Positions 659 to 26,635 of a DNA stretch of 64,000 nucleotides are shown here, piece by piece. The notes below the pieces were generated by a model. That model worked only from the letters and a program-made list of their open reading frames with translations, was not told the origin of the DNA and ran no database searches. Position numbers and translations under genes: made by a program. Position 1 is the first letter of the stretch. Every line of letters begins with the position of its first letter. Source of the DNA: Gemmatimonadota bacterium (GTDB taxonomy: Bacteria > Gemmatimonadota > Gemmatimonadetes > Gemmatimonadales > Gemmatimonadaceae); contig JAJPIM010000007.1 in NCBI GenBank assembly GCA_021324775.1, positions 1 to 64,000 of the forward strand, in the 5' to 3' direction.

Positions 659-1333
659 TCAGACAAACTCGTGGATATCGCACGTGTCCGGCGCCCAAAT
701 GGCAAGCCGTACCGGCGTGTCGTCGGCGTCAGCCAATGTATTTATGAGTAAGCGAGCAGGGTCAACAGTCAATCGCTTTCGTCCGGCACGCGTATAGAAC
801 GAGCGTGGCGCGACAATAGCACCGGTAACCGGCTTTGCCAGCCCACGAGTTCGACCTTGGCAGAATTCCGCAAACCCTGCTGATTCCCGGGCCAATTTCA
901 CTTGAAGCAGGTTCTGCACGACCGCGTACCATACGTTGTTCGCGTCGTGTTTCACCTCGCCGATGACACCATACACGCCCGCATTGGTGCGATAGAAGAG
1001 GACAAGGTCGGCCTCGACATTGTCCGCTCTGCCGCCCCCCCGATCGGCCACTAGCGGAAGACCGTTCACTCCATCAATCACCTCATGGCCGAATAACCGA
1101 AGTCGAGAACAGCACTTGACGAGGATATCGTGTTCAATCGCGTGTTCACCGTTTCTGGGGTGATCGGCGTCCCCTCGCGAATACAGCGGCCCTCCGGGGT
1201 GTAACCTGCTGGGCAGTCTTGTCCCATTCCTGTCCCACGCGCCGGGCGCGGGGCAATTCCACAGAGTGCTTAGGTGGGCGACGCGGCAGCCGACATCAGG
1301 TACTCTTGACCCTTCGAATTGGGCCAGAGCCAT
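659..1333 (-). CDS. PD-(D/E)XK-like nuclease-fold protein, start uncertain
   Basis: The C-terminal half looks genuinely coding. It has HAIEHDILVKCCSRL, then EADLVLFYR and YGVIGEVKHD, i.e. an acidic residue (about D109) followed by E-V-K (about E126/K128), the spacing of a PD-(D/E)XK catalytic core, then a helix with NVWYAVVQNLLQVKLA. The first ~60 residues are unconvincing. Another frame just upstream carries MGQDCPAGYTPEGRCIREGT, so the true N-terminus may be in a different frame, with a frameshift near 1150. The ATG at 1333 is used here; an in-frame ATG also exists at 1498. It is the last gene on the strand of the methyltransferase-helicase-GIY-YIG operon and could be its accessory nuclease. 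Possibly truncated. Confidence 0.5.
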   Translation of the reverse strand: MALAQFEGSRVPDVGCRVAHLSTLWNCPAPGAWDRNGTRLPSRLHPGGPLYSRGDADHPRNGEHAIEHDILVKCCSRLRLFGHEVIDGVNGLPLVADRGGGRADNVEADLVLFYRTNAGVYGVIGEVKHDANNVWYAVVQNLLQVKLARESAGFAEFCQGRTRGLAKPVTGAIVAPRSFYTRAGRKRLTVDPARLLINTLADADDTPVRLAIWAPDTCDIHEFV

Positions 1334-1585
1334 CCACCAGCTAAGCCAAGCGACGAAGATGTTATCGCGCTTCACAATCGGTTGTGCGTGGCGATGGGGG
1401 CCTCCCGAAGGCCCACACCTAAGCTTGGAGGGCGTTCGGGCCCCTGAGGGAGAGCCAAAGCTAGCCGACAAGAATGTTGGTCGTAACGAGTCATGCACGA
1501 CGTGACAGCGCGAGTGTTAGCGGATTCGCGCAGAGGTGCTCAACTGCGCATCAAGCAACGACGGGCTACTTGCAGCGTCCCGTTG

Positions 1586-2770
1586 TTAGCAAGGATGCCG
1601 AACGAGTTGCGCACTTGCCGGATCGTACACAAGGTTCGTGATCGACCCATCCCGTATGGCGTCCACTGCCTCGTCGATGACATGAAGGGGCACAAGGAAC
1701 CATTCTCGGGGGTGCACTGGATGACCAAACCGGTCGTTAATGGTCAGGTTAAGCTGTGCCGGCGCGAATATGCGATGGAATATGGCTTCCAGTTTTGTAC
1801 GCTTGACACGCGCAAGCTTGTACGTGGCGATGACCTCGACGTCCGCCAGGAGGTAGGTGGGGTCTAGAGCGGCGTTGGCGATACGAGTCTCGACCTTGCC
1901 ACCGGTGACGCCAATCTTGTGGATCAGGTCACGATGTTCCGCGACGAAGGGGTTAGAGGACAGACTTCGCAGCACGTAAATGGTACCGCTTTCGATATCG
2001 TCTTCCTCCCACGCACCGCTAAACAGCGGCACGTCGGTCGGCTCGGTCAATCGGCGTCCCGCTTCATCCTTGTAGAGCGCCCGCTGCAGCGAGCGTCGCA
2101 GAAGATTGCTCTCTGTTCCATTCGAGTAGATGACGCGCAACCGTGCATCTGACTCACCGTTCGGCGCGCGGAACACGTCTCCCATTTCGGCGATGTAGAC
2201 GAGCTGGCCGCCGAGGATGAAGAAGTTGCCGGTTCCCACGCTTGCATCCTTGCCGAAAGGGCGCGCCTGGCGGATGCCTGTTTTGAGCTCGTCCTCGACT
2301 TGTTTGAACAGCGGCCGGTACCGATCGAAGTCCGCACACTTCTCGCGATTCGCGATTTCATCCGACGCTCGTATCTCAGCCCTTGGCCGGACGTGACGCA
2401 GTTCGGTGATCGCGGAGGTTCCCACAACGTTCTCGAGCTCCGCCAGCATCTCGTCGTCGGTCATCGACTCTGCTGGTTCAGCCGGAACGATCTCCGCCCC
2501 ACTTAACAGCCCCTGACGATCGAATGGCGCGAGAACGATCCGGCATTCCTCGAGTGCCCGCAGACGATCGAGCCTCACGGCGTACAGCCGTTCGAAGATG
2601 TCTTTGTCTTCCCCATGGTGCGGGGGGTGGCCATGCTGCTCGACGAAACGTTGGATTTCCTCGAATCCGGCGATAATGCGTTCCTCACGCGGCGAGCGCC
2701 CACCTGTCTTTGCCGGTTGGGCGAAGTCCGCCAGCTCCTCACTCAGCTGATCGAGGTCAAGCTCACTCAT
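1586..2770 (-). CDS. GIY-YIG nuclease family protein (T5orf172/Mug113 type)
   Basis: This is a 394-residue protein starting MSELDLDQLSEEL. The N-terminal ~250 residues are charged and helical, with no fold I recognise. About residues 262-360 form a GIY-YIG domain of the T5orf172 subtype: GTIYVLRS, then IHKIGVTGGKVETRI, then TKLEAIFHRIFAPAQLNL and HPREWFLVP. The start at 2770 was chosen because its ATG overlaps the helicase stop (ATGAGTGA, 8 bases), typical of translational coupling; the in-frame extension to 2917 lies inside the helicase gene. As third gene after the methyltransferase and helicase it is the only clear nuclease of that trio, so it probably supplies DNA cleavage. That role is inferred. 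Confidence 0.85.
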   Translation of the reverse strand: MSELDLDQLSEELADFAQPAKTGGRSPREERIIAGFEEIQRFVEQHGHPPHHGEDKDIFERLYAVRLDRLRALEECRIVLAPFDRQGLLSGAEIVPAEPAESMTDDEMLAELENVVGTSAITELRHVRPRAEIRASDEIANREKCADFDRYRPLFKQVEDELKTGIRQARPFGKDASVGTGNFFILGGQLVYIAEMGDVFRAPNGESDARLRVIYSNGTESNLLRRSLQRALYKDEAGRRLTEPTDVPLFSGAWEEDDIESGTIYVLRSLSSNPFVAEHRDLIHKIGVTGGKVETRIANAALDPTYLLADVEVIATYKLARVKRTKLEAIFHRIFAPAQLNLTINDRFGHPVHPREWFLVPLHVIDEAVDAIRDGSITNLVYDPASAQLVRHPC

Positions 2771-4820
2771 AACGGCCTTCGGCCTTGAATCGAACAAAGG
2801 CAGTGGCGCCTTCGGCCATTCGCCTTTCCCAAGCGTCCGGCGAGGTGAGCGATGGAAGTCGGCCGCGTTCCTTCTTGAATCGCACCGCGCGAACGGCAAG
2901 ATCTTTCGCTTCGTCAAGCGTGACGTTGGTTCGCTTCGCGGAAATGGCCGCGGCGACCTGTTTCAGACTGTCCTCGCTCATCGCCTTGGCGAGAATTGCG
3001 TATGCCTCGCTGAACGGATTGATCCGATCGATGAGGTCGATATCCAGGTCCTTCACGTCCATCGCGAACCTGCGGACGCCGTCAAGCAGCGCAGTGTTGG
3101 CAGGGGGTTCGGCACTCTCGCTCTCAACCGCCAGCTTCTTGGCCTGCTGCACCAGATTCATGGCGGCGACAGCGTGCTGCCGCACGGCCTCCTGATCCTC
3201 CTCTGGAAGGTCAGGGTACTTTTCCTTGATGATCTTGCCCATACGGACCTGCGTCAGTTCCTCAGGTACCAACTCCTCATCGAACAGCCCACGCTCGACC
3301 GCATTCCTGTCCTGCACGAAGGTGGCGATCACTTCGCTGAGGTCTTCCCGGCAGATTCGCGCGCCCCATTCACTCTTGGGCTCGGCAATGTTCTTGATCT
3401 CGACCTGAAACTGGCCCGAGCCCTGGTTGAATCCGACGTTGCACTTCTCAGGGTCATAGCCGCCCTCGCCGTAGTCGAACCCTGGCACGGGCCCACTCTT
3501 CGCATTCTTCGGCCTGAATTCGAACCGAGGCGCGAGCACCTGCTCCATCAGCAAGCTGGCAGCGATGGCCTTGAGAGTGTCGTTCACGGCCTCAGTGACC
3601 GCCTGCTCCGACGCGTCCGGCTCGGCGATCAGGTTGGTGAATCGAGCGCGCGTCTTCCCCGGAGCATCTCGTGTCGCACGGCCGATGATCTGGACGATCT
3701 CGGTGAGGCTGGCGCGATAGCCTACAGTCAGCGCGTGCTCGCACCAGATCCAATCGAAGCCCTCCTTCGCCATGCCGAGAGCGACGATAATGTCCAGGTA
3801 GGCACGATTGTTGTTTGCGGCGGGGGCCTTCAGCGCAGCGGCAACCCGCTCCCGCTTCCCTGGATCGTCATCGACGAGATCGGCAATGCGAAGCGTCTGC
3901 CCTTGGCGCGTCAAGACCAGTTGGAAGCCCGAGTCTGGGTCGGCCCCCTGCCATTCGCCGAGCTCGTGGATGATATGTTCGACTTCCTTGATCTTGTCCT
4001 TCGTACTCTCGCGCGCGTTGACGCTCGGGATGTGGATGATCGTCTTCTCGGCGGGATCGAGGACCTTGAGGATGTCGTCGACATAGGAACCCGAGTAGAA
4101 GAAGTAGCCTATGTCGAGCTGTTTCAGGTATTCGTAGCCGTTGAGCTGTTCATAGTACGTATACGTTACAGTGTCGAACTTCGCCTCATCCTGCGGAGCC
4201 AACACCGCCTCGGCGTCGCCCCGGAAGTAGGAGCCGGTCATCGCCACTATGTGCACGCGGTCGCGGGCGATGAGCTGGCCGAGGAACTGGCCCAGTTTAT
4301 TGTCAGGATTGGCGGACGCATGATGAAACTCGTCCACGGCAACCAACCGATCGTCGAGCGCTTCGATCCCGAACCTTTCAACGGCGAACCGAAAGGTCGC
4401 ATGTGTGCAGACCAGTATCCTGGCGTCGCTCGCGAGGAAAGCACCGAGCGCGCTGACTTTGCCGCCGTTATCTCCCCCCGGGGCGTTGCACAGGTTCCAT
4501 TTCGGCTCGATGTGCCAGTCGGCCCAGAAGCCTGATTGGGTAAGCGGTTGGTCGTGGAAGCTTGCGCCGATGGACCTCTCGGGGACCACGATAATTGCCT
4601 GCTTGAGTCCCTGGTTCTGCAGCTTGTCGAGCGCTATGAACATGAGCGCGCGACTCTTCCCAGACGCAGGTGGCGACTTGATTAGCAGGTATTGCTCACC
4701 GCGCCGCTCGTAGGCGCGTTCCTGCATGGGGCGCATGCCAAGCGCGTTGGCTCTGGTCGAGCTGCCGTTGCGTGCGTACGAAACCGAAACGGAAGGAATC
4801 GATAGCTGGTCGTCGGTCAC
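2763..4820 (-). CDS. DEAD/DEAH-box (SF2) DNA helicase of a modification-based defence operon
   Basis: This is a 685-residue SF2 helicase. Walker A is LIKSPPASGKS (Lys about 55). The Walker B box is VAVDEFHHAS (about 160-167), motif III is VAMTGSYF, and the second RecA lobe has AKEGFDWIWCEHAL and IGRATRDAPGK (motif VI). A C-terminal ~250-residue helical region follows. The start is a GTG at 4818-4820 forming GTGA with the methyltransferase stop. It resembles helicases beside DNA methyltransferases in restriction-like systems (ResIII type) and may translocate on DNA or couple recognition to cleavage. Neighbours on both sides overlap it, so one transcript is likely. Assignment to a named defence system is open. 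Confidence 0.9.
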   Translation of the reverse strand: MTDDQLSIPSVSVSYARNGSSTRANALGMRPMQERAYERRGEQYLLIKSPPASGKSRALMFIALDKLQNQGLKQAIIVVPERSIGASFHDQPLTQSGFWADWHIEPKWNLCNAPGGDNGGKVSALGAFLASDARILVCTHATFRFAVERFGIEALDDRLVAVDEFHHASANPDNKLGQFLGQLIARDRVHIVAMTGSYFRGDAEAVLAPQDEAKFDTVTYTYYEQLNGYEYLKQLDIGYFFYSGSYVDDILKVLDPAEKTIIHIPSVNARESTKDKIKEVEHIIHELGEWQGADPDSGFQLVLTRQGQTLRIADLVDDDPGKRERVAAALKAPAANNNRAYLDIIVALGMAKEGFDWIWCEHALTVGYRASLTEIVQIIGRATRDAPGKTRARFTNLIAEPDASEQAVTEAVNDTLKAIAASLLMEQVLAPRFEFRPKNAKSGPVPGFDYGEGGYDPEKCNVGFNQGSGQFQVEIKNIAEPKSEWGARICREDLSEVIATFVQDRNAVERGLFDEELVPEELTQVRMGKIIKEKYPDLPEEDQEAVRQHAVAAMNLVQQAKKLAVESESAEPPANTALLDGVRRFAMDVKDLDIDLIDRINPFSEAYAILAKAMSEDSLKQVAAAISAKRTNVTLDEAKDLAVRAVRFKKERGRLPSLTSPDAWERRMAEGATAFVRFKAEGRYE

Positions 4821-7594
4821 GCGCCCATTCCGGACTGGCGTTTGGTGGTCAAGGTGTGTCCGGCGGTCATCTTAGTGTAGAGATCAAACAGCTTTTCGAG
4901 CCGTTCAGTATCGTTGCGAAAGCGGCGGCCGATATAGATGCGCTCGAGCACTTCGTCATTGCGCTCATGCGCTTCGCGCAGATCTGGGGGCATCTTGCGG
5001 GGATCGTACAGGTCGGCGATCGTGGCCGGGAAATGCTCCTCGCGAGTCAGTAGGATGTCCGTGGCGCAACGTGTAAGGTCGCTCTTGTTCTTCTCGGTGA
5101 GGGTCGGAAGGGGAAAGGTGTTCCAACCGAGGGTGTTGGAGTAAGAGAAACGCATCTCCAAGCGCATGCAAACCGTACCGATCCAGACCCAGTGGAGCCG
5201 TGACGCGATGAGCGCCATGTTCCACAGGGGAGCATCATAGAGGGCGAATGCTTTGTTGTGCACTACCGCGCGGCTATCGACTAAGGCCACCGGGAGATAC
5301 GATCTGTTTTCGGAGCTCACAATCGGAACCACTAGCAGGCTTGAGCGTGCCTCATTTTGGTCGCGGAACCGATGGGGGGCGCTTGTCAGCTTTGCAGCTT
5401 GACCATCGGAACTTTTCTCCTTGCGCGCAGCGGCAACAGCGTCTATCCGACTTCGGATCGCGGGGATGCGCATCGCTTCTTCTACGGTCTCGTCCGTGAT
5501 CCAGAGGCAGGCACGCGGTATCCCGGAGATTAGCTCTCGCGATCCGTAGAGAGGACGAATGAAACGCCCAATGCAATGTCGCCCAACTAGCTCTCGCGCC
5601 TCACTGGCCTGCAACATCAGTTGGTTGGCGTAGTAGGGATGATTGCCGAACTGCATCGGCGTTCTTTCGTCCGGAACCCTGGTTCGAGGCGACACGAAGA
5701 CGTCGACCCCCGCAACCAAATATGGATTAATGTTCTCCACTTCTCGAACCACGGTTTGTCCGTCCGCGCCGGGAGAAAATAACCTGCGTAGGACGCCTTG
5801 TTTCCTCGTCATCCCCACGATGCACACTGTGACACCGGCATTGTGACTGGCCAGATTGGACCATTTAAATGACTGGTGCGCAAACGAAATGGCGGTGCCG
5901 CCGCTCAGAATCGTCTGCCATAGGGCGCGTACTTGGATGCCTTGGCATATCGAATTCGTGGTGACAAACGCCGATTCAGCGTCCGTTTCCTTCAGATAGT
6001 CTGAAGCCTTGATGAACCAGCCCGAGACATAGTCAAGCGAGAGCGTATCCTTGGAGCGCCCTTCAAAGACGTCTCTCAGCTCGGCCTTTTGAGATCCGAC
6101 CTGATACTTCCTACCGACGTACGGCGGATTGCCACAAATGTAAGTCTCACCGCCCTCGTTCTCGAAGTCGATCTCTGCCTGATTGAGCGGCGTATTAAAA
6201 AGGTCGTCACCTAGCAACTTCACACCGGTCCCAGTCGGGGGGCAGATGCTCAGCCAATCAACCCGTAGCGAGTTGCCGTGCGTGATCCAGTTTTGGGAAT
6301 CGAGCGGCAGAAACTCCGCCAACGCTTCCTTCTGCCCGCGGTACATGACGTCGCACTGAAACTCGGCGATAATGAGCGCCAGGCGGGCGATTTCAGCGGC
6401 GAAATCGCGCAACTCAATCCCGCGGAAGTTGGTCAGCGGAATGTCACTCTTCCGTCCGCTTTCGCCACGTCTCTCGTTAATACAGTTCTCGATCCCGCGC
6501 ATCTGCTTGTACGCGATGACGAGGAAATTGCCGGAGCCGCACGCTGGGTCGAAGACTCTGATCCTCGACATGCGCTTGCGCAGATTGAGCAACGAGCGAG
6601 GGTTGTTACCCGCTTCCGCCAAACGTGCCCGTAGGTCGTCGATGAACAGAGGATTTAGCACCTTCAGGATATTCGGGACGCTCGTGTAATGCATTCCGAG
6701 AGCGCCGCGCTCTTCGTCTTCGGCGACTGCTTGGATCATCGACCCGAAGATGTCCGGGTTGATCTTGGTCCAGTCGAGGCCGCCGATGTGCAGCAGGTAG
6801 GAGCGTGCAATCCTGCTAAAGCGCGGTGCGTCCGCGTTGCCTGAAAACAACCCTCCGTTTACGTAGGGAAATGCATCTGTCCAGCGCGGAGTGCGGGCCC
6901 CGGCGCGCTCTTCAGATCTCGTGTTCATGGCGCGGAAGATCCCGCGGATCACTTCATGCGTATTCGACGAGTCGCGCTCGCTCATCTTCGCGATGGTGTT
7001 GGTGAACAGTCCCTTGCTATCGAAGATGGCGGTGTCTTCGGCGAAGAAACAGAAGATCAGCCGCGCCAGGAAATGGTTCATGTCATGACGACGTTCCGAC
7101 GTTCCCCATTCCGGATTGTCCTTCAGCAACTCGACATACAGCTTGTTAAGGCGGCTGGTGGCGCGGATGTCGAACGCGCTCTCGCGGATCTGCTTGACTG
7201 TCGTGATACCAGCCAGCGGCAGGAAAAAACCGAAGTGATCTGGGAATGCGTGGTATGCGCACGCGACCGTCTCGCCCGACTCCAGGTCCTCAGCTTCGAA
7301 AGCCGCTCCGTCCGTGGCGAGAATGAATTGCGCTTTCGCCTTCGTCGTCGCAGAGCTCGCCTTCAGAACTGCAAGCGTTGACGCGACATCACCCGGCTGC
7401 GCGACGGCGATGTGGACGTTGTTCGTCTGCAGGACGCCGCCAACGTCGGATCTGTTCGACGCGCCCGACCGCAACCGCTTGATTGTCGTGTCCTTGTTTC
7501 CGAACGCTTGCAAGAACGCGAACGGGAACTCTTTTGCGTCAAACGGTTGGCCGGCCAGGTCCGATACAGCAGCTTCGATCTCGACTGCATTCAT
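4817..7594 (-). CDS. Class I SAM-dependent DNA adenine methyltransferase (MmeI/COG1002-like, no nuclease domain)
   Basis: This is a 925-residue protein beginning MNAVEIEAAVSDLAGQPF. It has the SAM-binding motif I FDPACGSGNFLVIAY (about 346-360) and the amino-methyltransferase motif IV NPPYVG (about 488), which implies N6-adenine or N4-cytosine methylation. A target-recognition-like region follows. The layout matches MmeI-like enzymes (N-terminal, helical spacer, methyltransferase, recognition domain), but I see no D-x(n)-ExK nuclease motif at the N-terminus. It should therefore modify but not cut, leaving cutting to its partners. The start is ATG 7594, preceded by AGGA seven bases upstream and overlapping the stop of a small broken ORF. 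The 3' end overlaps the helicase start (GTGA). Confidence 0.9.
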   Translation of the reverse strand: MNAVEIEAAVSDLAGQPFDAKEFPFAFLQAFGNKDTTIKRLRSGASNRSDVGGVLQTNNVHIAVAQPGDVASTLAVLKASSATTKAKAQFILATDGAAFEAEDLESGETVACAYHAFPDHFGFFLPLAGITTVKQIRESAFDIRATSRLNKLYVELLKDNPEWGTSERRHDMNHFLARLIFCFFAEDTAIFDSKGLFTNTIAKMSERDSSNTHEVIRGIFRAMNTRSEERAGARTPRWTDAFPYVNGGLFSGNADAPRFSRIARSYLLHIGGLDWTKINPDIFGSMIQAVAEDEERGALGMHYTSVPNILKVLNPLFIDDLRARLAEAGNNPRSLLNLRKRMSRIRVFDPACGSGNFLVIAYKQMRGIENCINERRGESGRKSDIPLTNFRGIELRDFAAEIARLALIIAEFQCDVMYRGQKEALAEFLPLDSQNWITHGNSLRVDWLSICPPTGTGVKLLGDDLFNTPLNQAEIDFENEGGETYICGNPPYVGRKYQVGSQKAELRDVFEGRSKDTLSLDYVSGWFIKASDYLKETDAESAFVTTNSICQGIQVRALWQTILSGGTAISFAHQSFKWSNLASHNAGVTVCIVGMTRKQGVLRRLFSPGADGQTVVREVENINPYLVAGVDVFVSPRTRVPDERTPMQFGNHPYYANQLMLQASEARELVGRHCIGRFIRPLYGSRELISGIPRACLWITDETVEEAMRIPAIRSRIDAVAAARKEKSSDGQAAKLTSAPHRFRDQNEARSSLLVVPIVSSENRSYLPVALVDSRAVVHNKAFALYDAPLWNMALIASRLHWVWIGTVCMRLEMRFSYSNTLGWNTFPLPTLTEKNKSDLTRCATDILLTREEHFPATIADLYDPRKMPPDLREAHERNDEVLERIYIGRRFRNDTERLEKLFDLYTKMTAGHTLTTKRQSGMGA

Positions 7595-7895: not shown

Positions 7896-10019
7896 TTACG
7901 CGTCGCTCGTGCTGCCCAGTTGCGGCTCGAGCGATTGCCGAACGAGTCCGATCACGTACGGCAGGTCGTCCAAGCTCGACAGGCCGATCTCCACATCGCC
8001 GTTTCCCCAGCGCCCAATGCCACTGACATCTTTGCACAACCCTTTGGGATCGTTCAGATCGGCAAATGGCATGTTTAACGACAAGCGCAGCCGCTTGGCC
8101 TGAGGAACTGCATCCACGAAGTTGGTTTCGGCTTTGTACGCAACGTAATACTTGAGGAACTCCTCGGTCACACACGGGTCGAGCGCCAACACAGCCTTAC
8201 GAAAGCCTTCGAACACAGGTTGCATATTTGGTGTCAGTAGGTGCGGATGATCGTTGATCGTGTACTCCGCGACGGCATCGCCGGTCGGCCGGTAGGCGTC
8301 CAAAATATCGCGAGGCAAAACAGGGGCCGACCAAACCGTGACCGCAAAGTCTGCTAGTTTGTCGGCGCGGGCCTGTATCGCTGCCTCGTCCCAAGCCTCG
8401 AGCGCGCCAAGCCCCTGGTTGAGCTTGAGTGGGCTTTGCTTTAATCCCTTCTCGGGGGCATCGGGCATATCGCGCTTCTCAATGAAGGAACGGTCGCTGT
8501 AATCGGCGTTATACGCGGTCAGCGTCAGGTTACCGAGTGTATGTAACCACGTCTCATGAACGCGCTGCCAATCAGAGCCGAGCGCCTCGCGCCACTCGAG
8601 GGAGAGACTCGGGTTCTGTGGCATGATGTGCTCGATGGTGTACTCGTCCACCACCACGCGCTCCTTTCTGCCATAATTTTCAATGCGGCGGAGCCAATAA
8701 CTGCGACTGCGGAAGTTGTAAAGGTCGCGGGTATGCAGATCCCGGCGGAACTCTTCGTCAATGGGAAATCGACGGTAGGACGGCAGCCCAAGCAGGTGCG
8801 CCTGAATACTTTCCAGGTATCGGTCCTTCTTCAGTGCCTTCGTAAACGTGGCGAAGGTCTTGTTCATCGAGTTGGTGGGAATCGCACAAATGGCCCGGCG
8901 GAATACATATGCCTCGATCAGGCGCACGGTCATCAGCAGATCGTTCTTGGGCAGCGTATCGGCTTTGTAATCGTGATATAGCTCGAGTAGGAACGGATAA
9001 GCCACATCTACCTTAAGTTCGCGCAAGTCGTGGAAGGCAAGCTTTAGGTCAGCGTCGACTTCCGCGTCAAGCGCCATCGCGCAAAAGTGTCTGGCATAAT
9101 CGCGCATCTCACGTACGAGGCCTTCGATATGACTCTCGTCATTGGTGGCATCGGGTCGAGAGGATCGCGCATGCCCCTTAAAGGCTTCGTAAACAGCATT
9201 AATGTTGGGAATCTCGCCGGTCTTGACGGTGAGGTAGTGGCGCATAAAACTGTCAAAGTGGGTACCGTACGCCTCCTGACCGAAGCCTACCTCCATTGGC
9301 CGCCAGAACTGCTCGTAGAGTCGCGTTTGGAGAACTGGCTCAAGGCCCATCAAGATGAAGTTTCGAATGAGATCTGCCTGGCTTAGCTCCTTGCCAGTCG
9401 AGTTCATGCTCTCAAAAATAAGCTGAGGATTGTCCTGATCTCGGGTCAGCGCGATGTCCACGACGACCAACTTCGCGAGACCCTTGCAGACCGTGGCGAG
9501 TTCCACCCGCGCATCGGCAATCCATTTTGCGAACAACGCGTAGTTCGCCGCTATACGAAGGGACTGATGTTGCGGTTGTTCCCCGTCACCCACGATTGCG
9601 GTGAGCGAGGCCTTGTCTGTTTGCGACAGCAAGAGCTTAAAGTGGCGCTCGCCGGACTCTTCCGGGTTCAGCAGGTAGTAGTTGTTGATTTTCCTCTGCG
9701 AGAAGCCGTCGAACGGTTCGCTATCGGCCACCGCTTTGGCAAGGGCCGACAGCAACAGCGATACGGTAGTCAGTCGTTGTTGGCCATCGATGACAAGCAG
9801 GGGGGCCTGATGCGTGACTTGAGAGAGCCCGCTCTCGACATATACGATGGAACCGACGAAGTGGACGGGCACCTTGTCGCTAATGCCGCAACGCACTATG
9901 TCGTCCCAGAGCTGGCGACATTCCTTTTCCGTCCACGAATACGTCCGCTGGTAGATCGGAATGACGAACTGCGGGGACTTTTTCAGGAAATCGAGAAATT
10001 TGGCTTCAGTGGCCTTCAT
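7896..10019 (-). CDS. DUF262/DUF1524 (GmrSD-like) type IV restriction protein
   Basis: This is a 707-residue fusion. The N-terminal DUF262 (GmrS/ParB-like NTPase) shows IPIYQRTYSW (residues 20-29) and the diagnostic IDGQQRLTT (about 77-85). The middle carries the DUF1524 His-Me/HNH nuclease: YTIEHIMPQN (about 460) and LGNLTLT. The C-terminal ~120 residues (AYKAETNFVDAVPQ, IGRWGNGDVEIGL) match the DUF5655-like tail often fused to these proteins. The family includes GmrSD and BrxU, which cut modified phage DNA. Length is normal and all motifs are present, so it should be active. It points the same way as the methyltransferase operon downstream but is separated from it by the broken small gene. 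Start MKATEAKFLDFLKK at 10019. Confidence 0.9.
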   Translation of the reverse strand: MKATEAKFLDFLKKSPQFVIPIYQRTYSWTEKECRQLWDDIVRCGISDKVPVHFVGSIVYVESGLSQVTHQAPLLVIDGQQRLTTVSLLLSALAKAVADSEPFDGFSQRKINNYYLLNPEESGERHFKLLLSQTDKASLTAIVGDGEQPQHQSLRIAANYALFAKWIADARVELATVCKGLAKLVVVDIALTRDQDNPQLIFESMNSTGKELSQADLIRNFILMGLEPVLQTRLYEQFWRPMEVGFGQEAYGTHFDSFMRHYLTVKTGEIPNINAVYEAFKGHARSSRPDATNDESHIEGLVREMRDYARHFCAMALDAEVDADLKLAFHDLRELKVDVAYPFLLELYHDYKADTLPKNDLLMTVRLIEAYVFRRAICAIPTNSMNKTFATFTKALKKDRYLESIQAHLLGLPSYRRFPIDEEFRRDLHTRDLYNFRSRSYWLRRIENYGRKERVVVDEYTIEHIMPQNPSLSLEWREALGSDWQRVHETWLHTLGNLTLTAYNADYSDRSFIEKRDMPDAPEKGLKQSPLKLNQGLGALEAWDEAAIQARADKLADFAVTVWSAPVLPRDILDAYRPTGDAVAEYTINDHPHLLTPNMQPVFEGFRKAVLALDPCVTEEFLKYYVAYKAETNFVDAVPQAKRLRLSLNMPFADLNDPKGLCKDVSGIGRWGNGDVEIGLSSLDDLPYVIGLVRQSLEPQLGSTSDA

Positions 10020-10654: not shown

Positions 10655-12088
10655 ATGACGGACGAGATCGATCGCTTTGTCAACGGGTATGTGGAAGCGA
10701 TACGCGATGAGAACGCCGCCGTGTTCGCAGGCGCGGGTTTATCGATTCCATGTGGCTTGGTCGATTGGGCCTCGCTGCTGCGCGACATCGCCGTGGAGAT
10801 CGGACTGAACGTCGACAAGGAAACCGACCTGATCAGTGTTGCTCAGTTCCATGAGAATGAGCGAGGCGGACGCCATGGGATCAACCAGGCGTTAATCAAC
10901 GAATTTGCTGAGCGGTCGGACATCACAATAAACCACACGATTCTGGCCGCACTTCCGATCCGTACCTACTGGACGACGAATTACGATAAGCTTCTTGAAG
11001 AGTCGCTGCGGCGGGTACAGAAACGCGTGGACGTGAAGATCGTTGAGAAGAACATTGCCACAATGCTGCCGAGGCGCGACGTGGTTGTGTACAAGATGCA
11101 TGGCGATATCTCGCTGCCGGATGAAGCCGTCGTGACAAGGGACGATTATGAAAGCTATGGTACCACACATCCGCTGTTCAGCACAGCATTGCAAGGAGAC
11201 CTAGTATCAAAGAGATTTCTCTTCATTGGTTTCAGTTTCAGCGATCCGAATGTTGGTTATCTCCTTAGTCGCATTCGGCTGATTCTTGGAAAAGATCGTC
11301 CTGAGCATCACTGCCTCTTACGGGATGTACATCCGGATGACTTCCCAAGTGACGAAGACTACATCTATGCCCGGGCACGGCAGAATCTCCAGGTAAAGGA
11401 TCTCAAGCGTTTTGGGATTCAAGCACTGCTTGTCCAATCGTACGGCCAGTACACGGTAGTGCTCAAGAAAATAGCGGAGCAGTTCCGGCGTAGACGCGTG
11501 TTTGTGTCTGGTAGCGCGGCGACTTACGCTCCAATGGGCGATTTGGCTGGCGAAGAATTCTTACGTTTATTGGGCGCCGCCCTTATCGAGAAGGGGCTGG
11601 ATGTCGTCACAGGGTTTGGCCTGGGAGTGGGCCCCTATCTGTTAAACGGTGTCCTCGAAGGGCTGGAGGCCGAGAGCACACATTCGTTTCATGATCGAGT
11701 GACATTGCGGCCTTTTCCTCAAGGCATCTCCGACGCCGCTAGTCGTGCGCAAAGGTGGCGCAAGTACCGGACTGACATGATTGGAACCGCAGGGATAGCG
11801 GTATTTGTGTTCGGCAACCGCAAAAATGGTGACGAGGTGGAAGCTGCTTCTGGCGTTATCGAGGAATTCGAGCTTGCCAAGGAAGCCGGGCTCGTTTTGG
11901 TGCCTGTTGGGAGTACGGGATACGTGGCGCGGGAACTCCATCGACGGGTGCTGCTCGACTATGAAGCGCTTTTTCCAGGTCTGCCTCAGCTTCGCAACAG
12001 GCTCGAAGAATTGGGCACTGAAACAGATCAAGGCACGCTAGTAAGCCGTGTCGTGTCGCTGGTGGCGACCATCGCGAAAGGAGCATAA
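10655..12088 (+). CDS. thsA: Thoeris effector ThsA (SIR2 NADase with C-terminal SLOG sensor)
   Basis: This is a 477-residue protein colinear with Bacillus cereus ThsA (about 476 residues). The N-terminal SIR2 domain has NAAVFAGAGLS (20-30), TYWTTNYDKL with the catalytic Asn at 109, and VVYKMHGD with His 149, plus FLFIGFSFSDPN. The C-terminal SLOG/STALD domain starts near 285 with RVFVSGSAATY and continues with VTGFGLGVGPYLLNGVLE and LRPFPQG, the ligand-binding part. In this family the SLOG domain binds a cyclic ADP-ribose isomer made by ThsB, which switches on NAD+ cleavage and stops phage replication. ATG at 10655 follows GAGG. thsB starts on the base after the stop. All key residues are present, so the system looks intact. 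Confidence 0.95.
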   Translation: MTDEIDRFVNGYVEAIRDENAAVFAGAGLSIPCGLVDWASLLRDIAVEIGLNVDKETDLISVAQFHENERGGRHGINQALINEFAERSDITINHTILAALPIRTYWTTNYDKLLEESLRRVQKRVDVKIVEKNIATMLPRRDVVVYKMHGDISLPDEAVVTRDDYESYGTTHPLFSTALQGDLVSKRFLFIGFSFSDPNVGYLLSRIRLILGKDRPEHHCLLRDVHPDDFPSDEDYIYARARQNLQVKDLKRFGIQALLVQSYGQYTVVLKKIAEQFRRRRVFVSGSAATYAPMGDLAGEEFLRLLGAALIEKGLDVVTGFGLGVGPYLLNGVLEGLEAESTHSFHDRVTLRPFPQGISDAASRAQRWRKYRTDMIGTAGIAVFVFGNRKNGDEVEAASGVIEEFELAKEAGLVLVPVGSTGYVARELHRRVLLDYEALFPGLPQLRNRLEELGTETDQGTLVSRVVSLVATIAKGA

Positions 12089-12583
12089 ATGGCGCGCAAA
12101 GTGTTCTACAGTTTCCATTATGACGCTGATGGTGCCCGCGTGTCTCAGGTCCGAAACATGGGCGTGGTGGAGGGCAGCCCAATTGCGTCAGACAACGAGT
12201 GGGAAGAGATCCAGCGCGGTGGTGACAAAGCCATCCAGACTTGGATCGACGGACAAATGTCCGGGACGTCCTGTTGCGTGGTTCTGATCGGTAAGGCGAC
12301 TGCCAACAGAAAATGGGTCAATTATGAGATTGACCAGGCTTGGAAACAAAAAAAGGGGGTCGTTGGGATTCACATTTATGAGTTGAAGGATCTGAACGGC
12401 GCTAAATCGACAAAGGGATTGAACCCACTTGACTTTGTCCAGATCTCACCAGGTCGCGCTGTCTCCTCAGTGGCTAAGACGTATGATCCTCCTCAGGTAG
12501 ACAGTAAAGAGGTATACGCCCATATCAAGAACCATCTGGCGGAATGGATCGACGAAGCAATTGAGATTCGTGGGCGGTCTTAA
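12089..12583 (+). CDS. thsB: Thoeris sensor ThsB (TIR-domain cyclase)
   Basis: This is a 164-residue single-domain TIR protein of the ThsB (DUF1863-type) family. It opens KVFYSFHYDADG, has AIQTWIDGQMSGTSCCVVLIG, and WVNYEIDQAW carrying the likely catalytic Glu at 80, the position equivalent to the essential Glu in characterised ThsB. In known systems ThsB detects infection and converts NAD+ into a cyclic ADP-ribose isomer that activates ThsA. The ATG touches the thsA stop (TAA-ATG), so the two are co-translated. Only one TIR gene is present, as in the simplest type I Thoeris loci. The next base stretch holds the att-like repeat. Confidence 0.93.
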   Translation: MARKVFYSFHYDADGARVSQVRNMGVVEGSPIASDNEWEEIQRGGDKAIQTWIDGQMSGTSCCVVLIGKATANRKWVNYEIDQAWKQKKGVVGIHIYELKDLNGAKSTKGLNPLDFVQISPGRAVSSVAKTYDPPQVDSKEVYAHIKNHLAEWIDEAIEIRGRS

Positions 12584-13657
12584 TGGTTCGCCCGCGACGT
12601 GTCAAATGCGGGTTAGACCCCTGAGGGTCGGCCGGCACCCACCGCCGATCCGTTGGCAGTAGCCTGGGCAAACGCCGCCTACCGAACGACAAATTGAGCA
12701 TCGATTTCGTCAGCGACGCACTCGCGGGAGAGCACATCAGCGAGTGTGGCCCGAGAGGGATCGCGGGATCTCCGGTGCGTTCCAAGAACGTGAGCGCGTA
12801 CGGTGGTGGGCATCGGCGGATCCGTCGGGTTGTAGTGCGGCCAGCCGTCGCCAGGTAGGTTCGGGCCCGCAACCCCGAGCCAAGTGCCCGCGGCGCTCTA
12901 GAAACTCGACGATCGCGGCGTCGGTGACGGTGCGCGCCGTGACGGCTCTCTCGGGACCGTGGCCCGTTTCGTGGTCCGTTTCTCCCGGCAGGTCCGATCA
13001 TTCTCTATGTGAAAACCGGCGCCGATGCCCGGTTTCACGCAGCTAACCGTCAAATTGCCGAACTTTGGCCCCCTCTGAGATCGAATGGGGTGCAGCGGGT
13101 CGCGGGCTCAAACCCAACCGTCCCGACGATGCACAACTCCGGCTCCCAAAAGGCCATAGGACCGAATCTCAACTAGCGCCTAGAGGTCGCCGTATGGTGG
13201 CTCAACCTCTGCGCTGCTCCGTCCGCAGACCTCGGTGGAACGACCGCGTAGCCAAGGGCCGCTGATACGGCCCAAAACTATGAGCGCGGGTTCCGGGACA
13301 CCAGAGAAAGTTGCGAATCGTTCCGACGCAATGCTCGTATTGCCGTATGTAGATTCTCGGTCGTCGGTCTGCCCCTGTTCGGTTGGGCCATTGGTCAACC
13401 AAGTCTCGACGGAAGATTAGAGCAGGCAATGAGCAGCGGCCTCCACTAGGGGCGTCGGCCGGGCGCACCCCTTGGCATGGCAGAGCAAGATCAAAACTTG
13501 GTACGTGCTGACCCTGGAGAGACCTGTCCGGTCCACGGAGTAGGCGGCAACGCCCGCCTACCCATTCATTATCAGCATCAGCGATGGCATCCGTCACTGG
13601 CAAGTGTCAGACCCCCGCGCCATGTTGTGTCGTCCGCACGAAACTCCAACACCGTGC
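12584..13657. other. 1-kb stretch without a convincing gene, holding the left att-like repeat
   Basis: Short ORFs occur on both strands, but none shows a motif or a start with a ribosome site. A minus-strand stretch near 12740-12990 reads through without many stops but is unrecognisable. The stretch carries the direct repeat at 12949-13130. It may contain the leader of the TM0106-type gene. Confidence 0.5.
12949..13130 (+). repeat. Left copy of tRNA-3'-end-like direct repeat (putative att site)
   Basis: About 170 bases align with 27974-28150, with long identical blocks: TGGTCCGTTTCTCCCGG, ACCGGCGCCGATGCCC, CAGCTAACCGTCA and GATCGAATGG, then GGGTCGCGGG and CCGTCCCGA. The end resembles the T-arm plus acceptor strand of a tRNA, the usual target of tyrosine integrases, though here the T-stem is damaged (GCGGG against CCCAA). 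A hairpin GTGAAAACCGG/CCGGTTTCAC is inside. No integrase gene is visible in the window. Confidence 0.55.
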
Positions 13658-16600
13658 ATGCGATACTTCAGGGAACATCTCACCCTCTCAGCCACCGACC
13701 TGTCCAATTTCCTCGGCTGCCACCATCGGATGGCCCTGGACATGGAGGCTGCGGCCGGGGGTCGAACGCGCCCGCATTTCGAGGATCCGCTGTTGGAGCT
13801 TCTTTTCCAGCGTGGGCGCGATCATGAGAAGGCATACGTCGATTCTTTGCGAGCAGCCGGGCGCGAGATCCTGGATCTCACCAGCCTGGAGAATCGTGAC
13901 GAGCTAGTCGACGCCACGATGGCCGCTATGCACGCCGGTGCCGACATCATCGTCCAGGGCGCGCTTCGCAACGACCCATGGTTCGGCAAACCCGACCTCC
14001 TGCAACGTACGCCGCGTGCCAGTGGGCTTGGGGAGTGGTCGTACGAGATCGCCGACACCAAGCTCGCCCGAGAGACTCGCGCCGGAGCCGTCCTTCAGTT
14101 GGGCCTCTATTCGGAGATGCTTACCGTTACACAGGGGCGCTCGCCGGAATACTTCCACGTCATAACGCCCGATCCCGACCATCCAACCCACACCTTTCGG
14201 GTCGACGAGTACGCCGCTTACGTGCGGCTCGTACGGAACCAGTTGGCCACGATGGTAACGCGGACGGCCACGGACATCGCCGCGGCGTATTACCCGGAAC
14301 CGGTTGAGGAGTGTCGGATCTGTCCCTGGTCGGGCCTCTGCGATAGGAAGCGCCACACTGATGACCATCTCTCCCTCGTGGCCGGCATTACGCGGATGCA
14401 GCGAAGCGAGCTCGAAGCCCATGGCTTGCGTACGCTCGCCCAGCTCGGGCGTCTCCCGCTGCCGATACCCTTCAAGCCCGACCGTGGCTCACCAGACTCA
14501 TATATCCGCATTCGCGAACAAGCCCGCCTCCAGCTCGATTCACGGGGAAAGACGCCTCCACTCTACGAGCTCCGCGACGTAGTCGAGGGTGAGGGGCTCT
14601 GTCGGCTCCCCACGCCTTCTCCCGGCGACATCTTCCTCGACCTCGAGGGCGATAGCCTCGCGGTCGAGGGTGGTCGCGAATACCTGTTCGGTCTCGTGAC
14701 GCTGGGCCCCGACAACGTGCCGCAATACTCCGCTTATTGGGGATTTAATGACCGCGACGAGCGCGCGTCCTTCGAGGCAGTGATCGACCGGATCGTCGAC
14801 GCGATCGGCGCACACCCTGATACGCACGTCTTTCACTACGCACCCTACGAGTCGACGGCATTCAAACGGCTCATGGGGCGCTACGCGACGCGAGAGAACG
14901 AACTCGACGGCATGCTGCGAGCGGGGCGGCTCATCGATCTCTATGCGGTCGTTCGCCAAGGTCTACGCGCTGGCATCGAGGGCTACTCCATCAAGAAGCT
15001 CGAGCCTTTGTATGGGTTCGCGCGCGTCGTTTCCTTGGCGGATGCCGACAAAGGGCTCCGGGCTCTCGAGTATGCCCTTGCGGTCGGGGCGACCGATGTG
15101 GTGCCCGCCGACGTTCGTGCCACCGTCGAGGGATATAACAAAGACGACTGCCTCTCGACACTTCGCCTGCGTGACTGGCTCGAGACCCTGCGTCGTAGGG
15201 CGGAGGAGGGCGGTGCAATCATTCCACGGCCTGTGCTCAAGCCCCCCGAGCCGTCCGCTGCCCTCGACGAACGGCAACGTCGCACGGAGGCACTTCGGGA
15301 GCGGCTGCTGGCAGGAATCGACGGCCCGCCCGCTCCTGACACCCCCGAGTACGGGCGGTGGATTCTCGCGCATCTGCTCGATTTCCATCGCCGAGAAGAC
15401 AAGGCCGGATGGTGGAAATACTATGCGCTGTGCGGGTCCACTGATGAAGAGCTCATGGACGAGCCGGAGGCCGTCGCGCAGCTCAAGCACGATTGCCGGT
15501 GCGAGGTCACGCTTAATTCCAGGACGAAGAAGCCAACAGGCACCGTCGTTGACAGGTACCGGTATCCGCCGCAGGAGATGGAGATCGAGCGAGAGGACGA
15601 CCTGAAGAACCGCGATGGGTCTGCGTTTGGAGAGGTCGTCGCGGTGGATCGGTTGGCGCGCACGATTGAAGTGAAGAAGACGAGGGCATGCACCGAACTG
15701 CACCCCACCGCCGTGTTTGCCCATAAGCATGTCTCAGCGGAGGTCATTGAGAACGCTATCGCTGCGATCGGCGATGACGTCGCGCCCTTGCCGGGATGCA
15801 CTGGCGCAAACAGAATTGCACGCGCGTTGCTACAACGGGAGCCTCCACGCCTCGTGTCCGGCACTTTCCAACAAAGTGGCAGTGCGGATGTATCGGCACT
15901 TGCCCTTGCTACTGTGTGCCAACTCGATCACACCGTACTGGCCGTCCAAGGGCCTCCGGGATCCGGAAAGACCCATATGGGCGCCAGGATGATCTGCGCA
16001 CTCGTTGCCGAGGGAAAGAAGGTTGGGGTAATGGGGCCGACCCACAAGGTCATCGCGAAGCTTCTGGGCGAAGTCGCGAAGGCGGCCGAGCAGATGGCCG
16101 CGGCCGTTCGCTGCGCCCAAAAGAGTTCTGGAGATGACTCCGATCCCATACCGGACGGTATCGCGGCAATCTCCGATACGAAAGAGGCGCTGCATATGCT
16201 CACCAGTCGCGAGATGCAGGTGGTGGGGGGCACGGCGTGGCTCTGGACTCGGACGGAGATGCAGGGCGCAGTGGATGTGCTGTTCGTCGATGAGGCGGGG
16301 CAGGTTGCACTCGCCAATGCGGTCGCCGCCTCTGGTGCTGCGGATAGCATGGTACTATTGGGCGATCCACAGCAACTCAATCAGCCGCAGAAGGGAAGCC
16401 ACCCAGACGGCGTCGCAATTTCGGCCCTCCAGCATCTACTCGGCGACCACGAGACTATGCCGAGTGATCGAGGAATCTTTCTTCCGGAAACGTGGCGGCT
16501 ATCGCCCGGGATCTGCGACTTCACGTCAGAGGTGTTCTATGAATCACGCCTCCGGTCGAAGCCGGCTCTCCGAAACCAGTCACTCACCGGCATCGATAGC

Positions 16601-17104
16601 TTGGCGGGCAGCGCTCTCTGGTACGTCGACGTCCATCACGAGGGCCGCAGCAGTTCGTCCGCCGAGGAGGTCGATGTCGTTGCAACCCTCGTCGCCAAGC
16701 TGACCTCCCGGGGCTCGTCCTGGATCTCGGCAAACAATACCAAGACGCAACTCACTATTGACGATGTGCTGATCGTTTCACCATTCAACGCGCAAGTCAG
16801 CCGCCTCGCGGAACGCCTGCCGGCGGGGGCTAAGGTTGGCACAGTTGACAGGTTCCAGGGGCAAGAGGCCCCGGTCGTCATCTACAGCATGGCGGCCTCA
16901 AGCCCGGATGACGCACCGCGCGGCATGGAGTTCCTCTACAGCCTCAATCGCCTCAACGTCGCCACCTCTCGAGCGAGGTGCGCAGTAATCATTGTGGCCA
17001 ATCCTCGGCTGTTCCAGCCCGAGTGTCGTTCACCACGGCAGATGAAACTCGCAAATGCCCTCTGTCGGTACAGAGAGAAGGCTCGGCCGTATGTTCTGCA
17101 ATAG
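13658..17104 (+). CDS. TM0106-type RecB-like nuclease fused to SF1 helicase
   Basis: This is a 1148-residue two-part protein. The N-terminal half is the TM0106 RecB-like nuclease: FREHLTLSATDLSNFLGCHH at the start, YEIADTKLARET (PD-(D/E)XK D...K region), then C-x2-C-x5-C (CRICPWSGLC), probably a metal or Fe-S cluster site. An RNase-H-like segment follows (DIFLDLEGDS, about 325). The C-terminal half is an SF1 helicase with GPPGSGKT (765-772), DVLFVDEAGQ, LLGDPQQL, VDRFQGQEAPVVIYS and NVATSRARCAVIIV. Such proteins occur in defence islands and DNA-repair settings. The ATG at 13658 was preferred to the one 54 bases upstream because homology begins there. It is the first gene right of the left att-like repeat. 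Confidence 0.9.
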   Translation: MRYFREHLTLSATDLSNFLGCHHRMALDMEAAAGGRTRPHFEDPLLELLFQRGRDHEKAYVDSLRAAGREILDLTSLENRDELVDATMAAMHAGADIIVQGALRNDPWFGKPDLLQRTPRASGLGEWSYEIADTKLARETRAGAVLQLGLYSEMLTVTQGRSPEYFHVITPDPDHPTHTFRVDEYAAYVRLVRNQLATMVTRTATDIAAAYYPEPVEECRICPWSGLCDRKRHTDDHLSLVAGITRMQRSELEAHGLRTLAQLGRLPLPIPFKPDRGSPDSYIRIREQARLQLDSRGKTPPLYELRDVVEGEGLCRLPTPSPGDIFLDLEGDSLAVEGGREYLFGLVTLGPDNVPQYSAYWGFNDRDERASFEAVIDRIVDAIGAHPDTHVFHYAPYESTAFKRLMGRYATRENELDGMLRAGRLIDLYAVVRQGLRAGIEGYSIKKLEPLYGFARVVSLADADKGLRALEYALAVGATDVVPADVRATVEGYNKDDCLSTLRLRDWLETLRRRAEEGGAIIPRPVLKPPEPSAALDERQRRTEALRERLLAGIDGPPAPDTPEYGRWILAHLLDFHRREDKAGWWKYYALCGSTDEELMDEPEAVAQLKHDCRCEVTLNSRTKKPTGTVVDRYRYPPQEMEIEREDDLKNRDGSAFGEVVAVDRLARTIEVKKTRACTELHPTAVFAHKHVSAEVIENAIAAIGDDVAPLPGCTGANRIARALLQREPPRLVSGTFQQSGSADVSALALATVCQLDHTVLAVQGPPGSGKTHMGARMICALVAEGKKVGVMGPTHKVIAKLLGEVAKAAEQMAAAVRCAQKSSGDDSDPIPDGIAAISDTKEALHMLTSREMQVVGGTAWLWTRTEMQGAVDVLFVDEAGQVALANAVAASGAADSMVLLGDPQQLNQPQKGSHPDGVAISALQHLLGDHETMPSDRGIFLPETWRLSPGICDFTSEVFYESRLRSKPALRNQSLTGIDSLAGSALWYVDVHHEGRSSSSAEEVDVVATLVAKLTSRGSSWISANNTKTQLTIDDVLIVSPFNAQVSRLAERLPAGAKVGTVDRFQGQEAPVVIYSMAASSPDDAPRGMEFLYSLNRLNVATSRARCAVIIVANPRLFQPECRSPRQMKLANALCRYREKARPYVLQ

Positions 17105-19562: not shown

Positions 19563-21725
19563 ATGCCATTTCGCTCAGGAGGGCCAACAATCCAGCCCGG
19601 CACCGTGGTTGAGGACGCAGACGATCAGCACTCGACCATCAAGGGGCTTCTCAGGGTACTTCGTCGCCTCGATGGCGGCTCATGGCAAGCGAACCGATCC
19701 GAGTCCGAGAGGCTTCGATGCGACCAGGCAAGCACCGAGGAAACCGATCGATTCATCGAGAAGTTGGAGGACAGTGTCGCGCGCTCGGCGGCTCCGCATT
19801 TCGAACTTGCGTATGAGCGAAATCCCACCACTCGGAAAGCGCGGTACCTCGTGCGGCGCGCGGGTCACGAATGCACGGATCAATCTGACGCAAAGTTTGA
19901 TACGTTTGATCGTATCACCGGGCTGGCCCTGGTAAAACGGTGCCATCGAATGGACGGTTGTGCGCGACAAGATGGATCAGAGTCTATCGATCGCTGGCAC
20001 GTTGAACGACACGGACTAAGACAGGACGCCACAAAGTTAGAGGGACGTGCGGCGCCAGTACCCGGCAGTGCCGCGTTACCGCCATCTGCGGTCAACCTCC
20101 CCGGGAGGATTGGCGAGGTGCTGGCCAGGATCCCTGGATCTAGCGCGCGCGAAATACACAGTTTATTCAGCGCAGAAGGCGTCTCTTGTTTTGACCGCCG
20201 CACAATCAATCGCGTGCTCTACCGAGATTCTGCCAAGTTCGCGTCCGACCACGGTGTGCCCCCTCGTTGGCGCCTTCGGGATGCTTTGATTGAGTTGTCC
20301 GTCCAGAGCTCGGATAGCACCACGAGTGGCAAGGCAAACGCTTGCATGCCGCCCCGGTTGTTTGCGTGGCAGGCCGAGGCTCTTGACGCCTGGCGCGAGA
20401 ATGGGCGACGCGGAATTGTTCAGGCGGTCACCGGGACGGGCAAGACACAGCTCGGCATCGAAGCCTCTAGAGTCGAGATTGCTCAGGGTGGTTCCGTCCT
20501 TGTCCTTGTACCATCCATTGACCTAATGCGGCAATGGAAAAGCAAACTGGCTGAGCAGCTGCCCAACGCTCGCATCGGTTGTATGGGTGGGGGTATGCGC
20601 ATGGACGCTGGGCGATGCGATGCGGTCATCGCAGTCGTCAATTCCATCCGCGATTCCCCAATTGATCTTCGTTCTGGACAAAGCCTTCTAATTGCCGACG
20701 AGTGTCACCGATATGGTTCAAGCTGTAACAAGAATGCTTTGAATGAGGATTTCGCGCGTCGACTCGGGCTAAGCGCCACATACATCCGCGCGGACGACGG
20801 ACACTTGGAAATATTAGAGCCGTATTTCGGAGGAATGTGTTATGACTTGGGCTATCGCCGAGCCATCAAGGATGACGTTGTCGCGCACTTCGTCGTCGCG
20901 CTCCTCGGGGTTCGATTCGACTCAGACGAACAACAAACCTATGACGACGCGAGCAAAGAGGCCGGACGGCTTCGCCTACGGCTAATCAACCAGTACAACT
21001 TCACCGCTGACCCGTTCGGCATATTTATGGAGGAAGTCACTAATGGCGCCAAACACTGGGACGGCAGAGTTAGTATCACGTGCCGGCAGTACCTAAGCGC
21101 GTTTGAACGGCGCCGCAGGGTACTTGCGGAATGCCACGGTAAGCGATGGGTTCTCTTCCAACTAAAGCGAGCGCTTGTCAACGCGACGGGTACCATCGTG
21201 TTTACCGAGTCTATCCGAGGTGCTAAAGCCGCGGTAGAAGTCCTCGATCTGATCGACGTTCGCGCGAAGGCACTTCACAGTGAGTCACCCACGGCGGAGC
21301 GTCGCGCGATTCTAGAGGAGTTCCGCCGCAACTCTCTCAAGGTGATTGTTGCGCCAAGGGTCCTCGACGAGGGAATCGATGTACCCCAAGCAGACCTTGG
21401 AGTTATTCTTGCGGCGAGCCGATCACATAGACAGATGGTGCAGCGAATGGGACGAGTAATCCGTCGGAAAGTCGACGATCGGCGCGCAAGGTTCGTTATC
21501 GCATATGTGAAGGGTACGTCGGAGGATCCCGCTCTGGGTGCCCACGAAACATTTCTGCGGGAGCTGACCGGAGTTGCCGACGACGTTCGGGATTTTGGCG
21601 CGACCGCGGATCCGCGCGATCTGTGTCGGTACCTCAACCGCCTGTACTCCGGGTTGCCGGTGTCACACCCGCGTCTTAGTGGGGAACCGTCGCGGGGCGG
21701 TAGCGAAGCCGTCCAACTGCCGTGA
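19563..21725 (+). CDS. SF2 DEAD/DEAH helicase with novel N-terminal region
   Basis: This is a 720-residue protein. Helicase motifs are clear: FAWQAEALDAWRENG (Q-motif region), AVTGTGKTQLGIE (Walker A Lys 294), ADECHRYG (Walker B, about 378-385), LGLSATYIRAD (motif III), GTIVFTES, DEGIDVPQADLGVILAASRS and QRMGRVIRR (motif VI). This resembles the ResIII/XPB-like group. The first ~250 residues are not a known helicase extension; about 185-240 (GEVLARIPGSSAREIHSLFS, then TINRVLYR) looks like a winged-helix DNA-binding segment. No partner gene is intact nearby; the next locus is the HsdR remnant. It may be a single-gene defence helicase or what remains of a larger system. Confidence 0.85.
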   Translation: MPFRSGGPTIQPGTVVEDADDQHSTIKGLLRVLRRLDGGSWQANRSESERLRCDQASTEETDRFIEKLEDSVARSAAPHFELAYERNPTTRKARYLVRRAGHECTDQSDAKFDTFDRITGLALVKRCHRMDGCARQDGSESIDRWHVERHGLRQDATKLEGRAAPVPGSAALPPSAVNLPGRIGEVLARIPGSSAREIHSLFSAEGVSCFDRRTINRVLYRDSAKFASDHGVPPRWRLRDALIELSVQSSDSTTSGKANACMPPRLFAWQAEALDAWRENGRRGIVQAVTGTGKTQLGIEASRVEIAQGGSVLVLVPSIDLMRQWKSKLAEQLPNARIGCMGGGMRMDAGRCDAVIAVVNSIRDSPIDLRSGQSLLIADECHRYGSSCNKNALNEDFARRLGLSATYIRADDGHLEILEPYFGGMCYDLGYRRAIKDDVVAHFVVALLGVRFDSDEQQTYDDASKEAGRLRLRLINQYNFTADPFGIFMEEVTNGAKHWDGRVSITCRQYLSAFERRRRVLAECHGKRWVLFQLKRALVNATGTIVFTESIRGAKAAVEVLDLIDVRAKALHSESPTAERRAILEEFRRNSLKVIVAPRVLDEGIDVPQADLGVILAASRSHRQMVQRMGRVIRRKVDDRRARFVIAYVKGTSEDPALGAHETFLRELTGVADDVRDFGATADPRDLCRYLNRLYSGLPVSHPRLSGEPSRGGSEAVQLP

Positions 21726-22805: not shown

Positions 22806-23156
22806 ACCCCCTACTGGCCTCCACGCGAGGTGCTGAGACATTATGGTTTGTTGGCGGACAGCCTCTAAACTGTCTTGAGCGTTAAGGGCATGCGCGGCGC
22901 TTGCGCATAGTCTGTCAAACTCGTATGCATCGTGTGCCTGAGAGATCAGGAGGCGGGACGCATGCCTGGATCCGCTGATCACCACTGTCGGGTGTAACAA
23001 ATGCGGCCACGATTGAGAGCGCGGAATCCGCAGCTCGGTGCGCTGCGATCCACTCGCTGGCAGCACGTGGTGTCCCCACGCCCTCCACGCTCTAGCGCTT
23101 CCTCAGCCTGCGGCCCACCGCGACGGTCAGGGGCGAATCCGGCGCATCAAGCTAAA

Positions 23157-25127: not shown

Positions 25128-25162
25128 TTGTGAAGTTGGTGCCACCGAGGGGTGACGCAGGT

Positions 25163-26599: not shown

Positions 26600-26635
26600 A
26601 CGCGGGTGTGGTGCGAACTTTCACCGGGAGGGACG

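Follow-up and report, generated by a model that had tools for sequence, protein, structure and literature searches.

The window, a 64,000-nucleotide stretch of Gemmatimonadota DNA at the start of a 163-kb contig (genome 4.19 Mb), carries three genes that are a member of the published dnmA(yeeA)-yeeB-yeeC (YeeABC) cluster, a family already known but poorly understood. When the ORF coordinates were re-checked, the trio was found on the minus strand in the order methyltransferase, SF2 helicase, GIY-YIG gene, and the whole anatomy described in an earlier note on this DNA was confirmed, including the GTGA shared by methyltransferase and helicase genes (bases 4820-4817) and the 8-base overlap of helicase and GIY-YIG genes (2770-2763). 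The features are as follows.

4817..7594, minus strand: YeeA/DnmA-type MmeI-family adenine DNA methyltransferase with its own target-recognition domain (Pfam, 5HR4 alignment, relatives)
4817..4820, minus strand: junction 1 (GTGA), methyltransferase/helicase; an insertion slot in relatives, empty here
2763..4820, minus strand: YeeB-type SF2 helicase/translocase without a nuclease domain (Pfam DEAD, motifs, GTGA overlap)
1586..2770, minus strand: YeeC-type protein with a C-terminal T5orf172/MUG113 GIY-YIG domain, the proposed cutter (Pfam, active-site residues, 8-bp overlap)
659..1498, minus strand: PD-(D/E)XK-like ORF downstream of the trio; on the evidence outside the system

Membership and distribution of the YeeABC family

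The trio has the features of YeeABC: an MmeI-family methyltransferase devoid of the D...ExK nuclease motif, an SF2 helicase gene immediately downstream and, second downstream, a gene for a protein with a C-terminal T5orf172/GIY-YIG domain. By their published description, the B. subtilis and V. crassostreae clusters have the same three families in the same order. For each of the three genes, homologues were aligned from Bacillota plasmids, and the B. subtilis genome, used as a control, gave a signal for MmeI_TRD. The first paper on the family is Morgan 2009, as cited in PMC7261158, and the cluster was also described by Makarova, as cited in PMC9973331. Nye 2020 (PMC7261158) and Fernbach 2023 (PMC9973331) treat it; these two papers already report that the endonuclease motif is absent, that a helicase and a T5orf172/GIY-YIG protein are conserved neighbours, and that a Type I-like restriction-modification system has been proposed.

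The suggestion in the earlier note that this is a distinct, undescribed system thus does not hold. The outcome that the note itself had given as refuting it, a match to an already named system, largely applies. PADLOC 2.0.0, run as that note had advised, has no model for the trio, labelled the methyltransferase alone, as Type IIG, and gave weak matches at most for the other two proteins. Taken as a whole, the earlier interpretation survives in its exclusion of other systems and in its choice of likely cutter, and fails in its suggestion of novelty; the fourth ORF lies outside the system. The trio is ordinary as a find and useful as an intact test case. YeeABC is widespread on plasmids and chromosomes, but the defence-gene library used does not list it as a named system, and the member studied best is a relic. 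With an intact copy and a partial site predicted for it, one can test directly if YeeABC restricts and which nuclease is responsible.

Genomes with the same three genes, which the earlier note had proposed to collect, were found, ranging from Pseudomonadota to Cyanobacteriota, Actinomycetota and Bacillota, and each of the 32 relatives whose trio is intact keeps the same gene order. Whole-length relatives with 42-81% identity, in the same order in many genomes, exclude chance association. A scan of 84,980 species genomes found the GIY-YIG gene and the helicase together in 15 loci (the helicase is degraded in L018); the methyltransferase was present in 13 of these, and the two exceptions, L006 and L012, end near a contig edge. 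Within the class to which the window belongs, the helicase occurs in 7 of 394 genomes; six of these are other than that of the window, and each has the methyltransferase and GIY-YIG genes next to the helicase. Two genomes of the same genus lack the trio. Relatives of the GIY-YIG protein occur in 228 plasmid records; in most of the annotated examples a methyltransferase is followed by a DEAD/DEAH helicase and then a GIY-YIG nuclease, and some copies, for example L031, are broken or partial.

The three proteins and the predicted target site

The methyltransferase ORF (7594-4817) starts with ATG and encodes 925 amino acids (MNAVEIE...), with both the SAM-binding DPACGSGNF and the NPPY motif reported earlier. 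All five MmeI Pfam domains (MmeI_N, hel, Mtase, TRD, C) match above the curated cut-off, identity to 17 relatives is 37-66%, and MmeI (5HR4) is the only close solved relative. MmeI cuts with residues D70, E80 and K82, and alanine changes in them abolish cutting (PMC4833311). In the family profile aligned to 5HR4 this triad falls on G/A/A, and none of the 18 aligned family members has ExK at the nuclease position. The observation that the protein has no visible nuclease motif was therefore right, and an active N-terminal nuclease is ruled out. Among relatives, mean pairwise identity is 0.65 in the dead N-terminal domain, on a par with the 0.63 of the methyltransferase domain (C-terminal domain 0.78), so that this part is still under selection; the fold probably persists in a structural or docking role, for instance as a dock for the other two proteins. 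The target-recognition domain is the most diverged part, with a mean pairwise identity of 0.39 versus 0.63-0.78 elsewhere in the trio regions compared, as expected of a defence system that changes specificity.

Contact rules established for MmeI (PMC4833311) allow a partial prediction of that specificity. In these rules C is specified at base 6 by E806/R808 and at base 4 by K774/S810, with the methylated A between them at base 5. The methyltransferase of the window has E, R, K and S at the aligned positions, and we therefore predict, with low to moderate confidence, a site of roughly 5'-NNNCAC-3'; position 3 (I at 751, N at 773) falls outside the stated rules. The site should thus differ from that of B. 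subtilis DnmA, GACGAG (PMC7261158, PMC9973331).

The helicase ORF (4820-2763) starts with GTG and encodes 685 amino acids, with Pfam DEAD above the curated cut-off. Motifs I, II, III and VI are present (Walker A PPASGKS, DEFH, TGS and QIIGRATR), their core residues are invariant in 14 sequences, and the mean pairwise identity among trio relatives is 0.70. No sequence relative was found among solved structures, so translocation is inferred from the SF2 motifs only. The label 'pseudomurein-binding repeat' carried by YeeB in some records is probably spurious; here that match is weak and below the Pfam cut-off. The GIY-YIG protein (ORF 2770-1586, 394 amino acids) matches MUG113 and T5orf172 above the curated cut-offs, and its active site (Y265, K285-x-G287, R296, E328, H332) is invariant in 16 sequences. 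It, too, had no sequence match to a solved structure, and the structure models of both proteins were too weak to lean on (mean pLDDT 63.1 and pTM 0.44 for the helicase; 70.6 and 0.36 for the GIY-YIG protein). The literature search found no biochemistry of any YeeB or YeeC.

Proposed mechanism and alternatives

We consider it probable, though by no means strongly so, that the three proteins of the YeeABC operon together carry out restriction and modification, in effect as a Type ISP/Type IIL machine divided over three polypeptides and fitted with another nuclease. The family probably methylates the DNA of its host cell and cleaves invading DNA that lacks the mark, with motor and nuclease as separate proteins. 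By homology, the MmeI-type protein would recognize an asymmetric site of about 6 bp via its own recognition domain and methylate one adenine on one strand, and this lone-strand methylation would protect host DNA. At unmethylated sites the same protein would load the helicase, which would then translocate. As the mark would sit on one strand only, cleavage is expected to require either a pair of unmethylated sites in head-to-head orientation, between which the motor would communicate, or the collision of two motors, as with Type ISP enzymes. Type ISP has been described as Type IIL plus a motor that requires head-to-head sites (PMC4872093), and lone-strand modification has been argued to need paired opposed sites (PMC3874165). 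The cut itself would be made by the GIY-YIG protein, the cutter suggested by the earlier note, to judge from its intact active site and constant linkage.

Type ISP enzymes (LlaGI, LlaBIII) share the functional parts, namely a nuclease, an SF2 motor, a gamma-methyltransferase, a recognition domain and an asymmetric site, but combine them in one polypeptide with an Mrr-like nuclease, whereas the window has three separate genes and a GIY-YIG domain. MmeI (Type IIL) has the same five methyltransferase domains and the same asymmetric modification of one adenine, but cuts by its own D70/E80/K82, whereas in the window a helicase and a nuclease would act in trans. The trio is therefore not a nuclease-bearing Type IIL enzyme of the MmeI kind, as had been argued, and it is scarcely credible that the first gene is a lone Type IIL restriction enzyme beside two unrelated neighbours: PADLOC and NCBI-type annotation do call it Type IIG/IIL, but the protein has lost the nuclease triad, and its gene stays linked to the other two wherever a relative has an intact trio. 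Type I systems with embedded genes (EcoprrI, with prrC) likewise have separate modification and motor genes and, as in relatives of the window, extra genes within the operon, the cargo slot of the window itself being empty. The distinction from classical Type I also stands: there is no HsdS, the recognition domain being fused to the methyltransferase, and the motor has no PD-(D/E)XK domain, its helicase motifs beginning near residue 30 with no match to a nuclease family.

Both BREX and DISARM combine an MmeI-like methyltransferase with helicases, and in PADLOC the methyltransferase of the window matches DrmMI and PglX weakly and in part. The operon might accordingly use methylation to mark self while the helicase and the GIY-YIG protein block phage replication by a route other than site-linked translocation and cutting. 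We regard this as unlikely. Neither drmA, drmB and drmC nor the BREX genes pglZ and brxC had a match in the trio or its neighbours (8 proteins of 1-17 kb), the partial DrmMI match being the only one to a Drm protein, which upholds the exclusion of DISARM, and the invariant GIY-YIG active site suggests catalysis.

That the operon is a relic of the orphan-methyltransferase type, with a methyltransferase that regulates gene expression beside helicase and GIY-YIG genes that have ceased to restrict, is the conclusion published for B. subtilis (PMC7261158, PMC9973331). There, single deletions of dnmA, yeeB or yeeC left plaquing of three phages unchanged, deletion of dnmA did not alter transformation, and phages show no avoidance of the DnmA motif (PMC7261158, PMC9973331). 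In V. crassostreae, according to what these two papers relay, deletion of dnmA or yeeB increased sensitivity to some phages. For the window we find the relic reading decidedly unlikely. B. subtilis YeeB and YeeC, reported inactive in defence, themselves lack stretches of their C-terminal domains (Fernbach 2023, PMC9973331), whereas here the three frames are intact and the motor and nuclease residues are invariant across 14-16 sequences. The recognition domain, moreover, has diverged, and the operon adjoins Thoeris and GmrSD-type genes and is missing from genomes of the same genus, a pattern that fits mobile defence genes.

The insertion slot and neighbouring genes

The junction between methyltransferase and helicase genes, closed in the window, carries cargo in many relatives. 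All three genes could be placed in 34 relatives, of which 32 were counted after we left out, on our own reading, L062 (broken methyltransferase) and L063 (insertion sequence in the methyltransferase). Half of these (16/32) have 0.4-2.7 kb between methyltransferase and helicase, while the distance from helicase to GIY-YIG gene never exceeds 119 bp (Fisher p = 2.5e-6, with loci counted as independent though L064 and L065 are near-identical). All 16 filled slots belong to closer relatives; six distant ones have none. The contents include PDDEXK_4, NucS-like, DUF1016/YhcG and AlbA_2 with HATPase_c_4 proteins, RelB/YafQ plus RelE/ParE pairs and unnamed proteins; RhuM occupies the slot of L011, a locus outside the 32 counted. 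Overlaps of about 4 bp between several cargo genes and the genes next to them imply co-translation. An unnamed protein recurs in four loci with 40-67% identity, and the two copies scanned had no Pfam match:

L009:5950-6723, L011:6113-6880, L014:5948-6721, L057:5627-6409: slot protein of ~257 amino acids between methyltransferase and helicase

By eye, this protein contains an R-LVVNVYKHG-like motif and is perhaps HEPN-like. Two other slot proteins (L009:6731-7939 and L014:6944-7954) are 41% alike and have no Pfam match, and their C-terminus resembles, by eye, a second GIY-YIG domain (YILRL...VKVGFS...R...E).

Genes embedded in Type I operons, such as prrC, are known (PMC3874165); searches of one open-access library found no description of an insertion slot in YeeABC. 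The slot would tie YeeABC to the idea of effectors embedded in restriction-modification operons. Tentatively, and with more doubt than conviction, we propose that YeeABC is a mechanistically separate ATP-dependent restriction class, Type ISP-like but split, which cuts by GIY-YIG and retains the dead nuclease fold as a dock. Its methyltransferase-helicase junction would then be reserved for backup effectors, which may act as guards of the system in the manner of PrrC in EcoprrI. Such effectors may include the toxin-antitoxin pairs, AlbA_2, RhuM, DUF1016/YhcG and the other nucleases.

The ORF at 659-1498, which the earlier note had drawn attention to after the trio, is indeed an open frame and contains EADLVLF...VIGEVK, PD-(D/E)XK-like by eye. 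It had no family match (Pfam, PADLOC), searches of 72,556 plasmids and of the 393 other genomes in the class yielded no relative, and it is absent from the other trio loci; we therefore rejected it as a part of the system. Its first ~100 codons do not look like protein, and the ORF may be a fragment.

On the other side of the trio, 300 bp upstream of the methyltransferase and on the same strand, lies a gene (7896-10019, minus strand) for a GmrSD-type single-chain protein (DUF262/DUF1524) with a C-terminal DUF5655, its best PADLOC match being 'Orf5' (627 bits). It was rejected as a part of the operon, showing no linkage in relatives. A complete Thoeris pair follows on the plus strand (10655-12583), with adjacent genes for ThsA (SIR2 plus STALD, 592 bits in PADLOC) and ThsB (TIR-like, 231 bits). 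Also on the plus strand are a 1166-amino-acid fusion of a TM0106-type RecB-like nuclease/RNase_H_2 region to a UPF1-like SF1 helicase (13604-17104) and an SF2 helicase resembling PbeA (19563-21725, 211 bits). After the latter come, in a low-GC stretch, three large ORFs (23001-27538) of 708, 507 and 310 amino acids; they have no Pfam or PADLOC match and are possibly undescribed defence genes.
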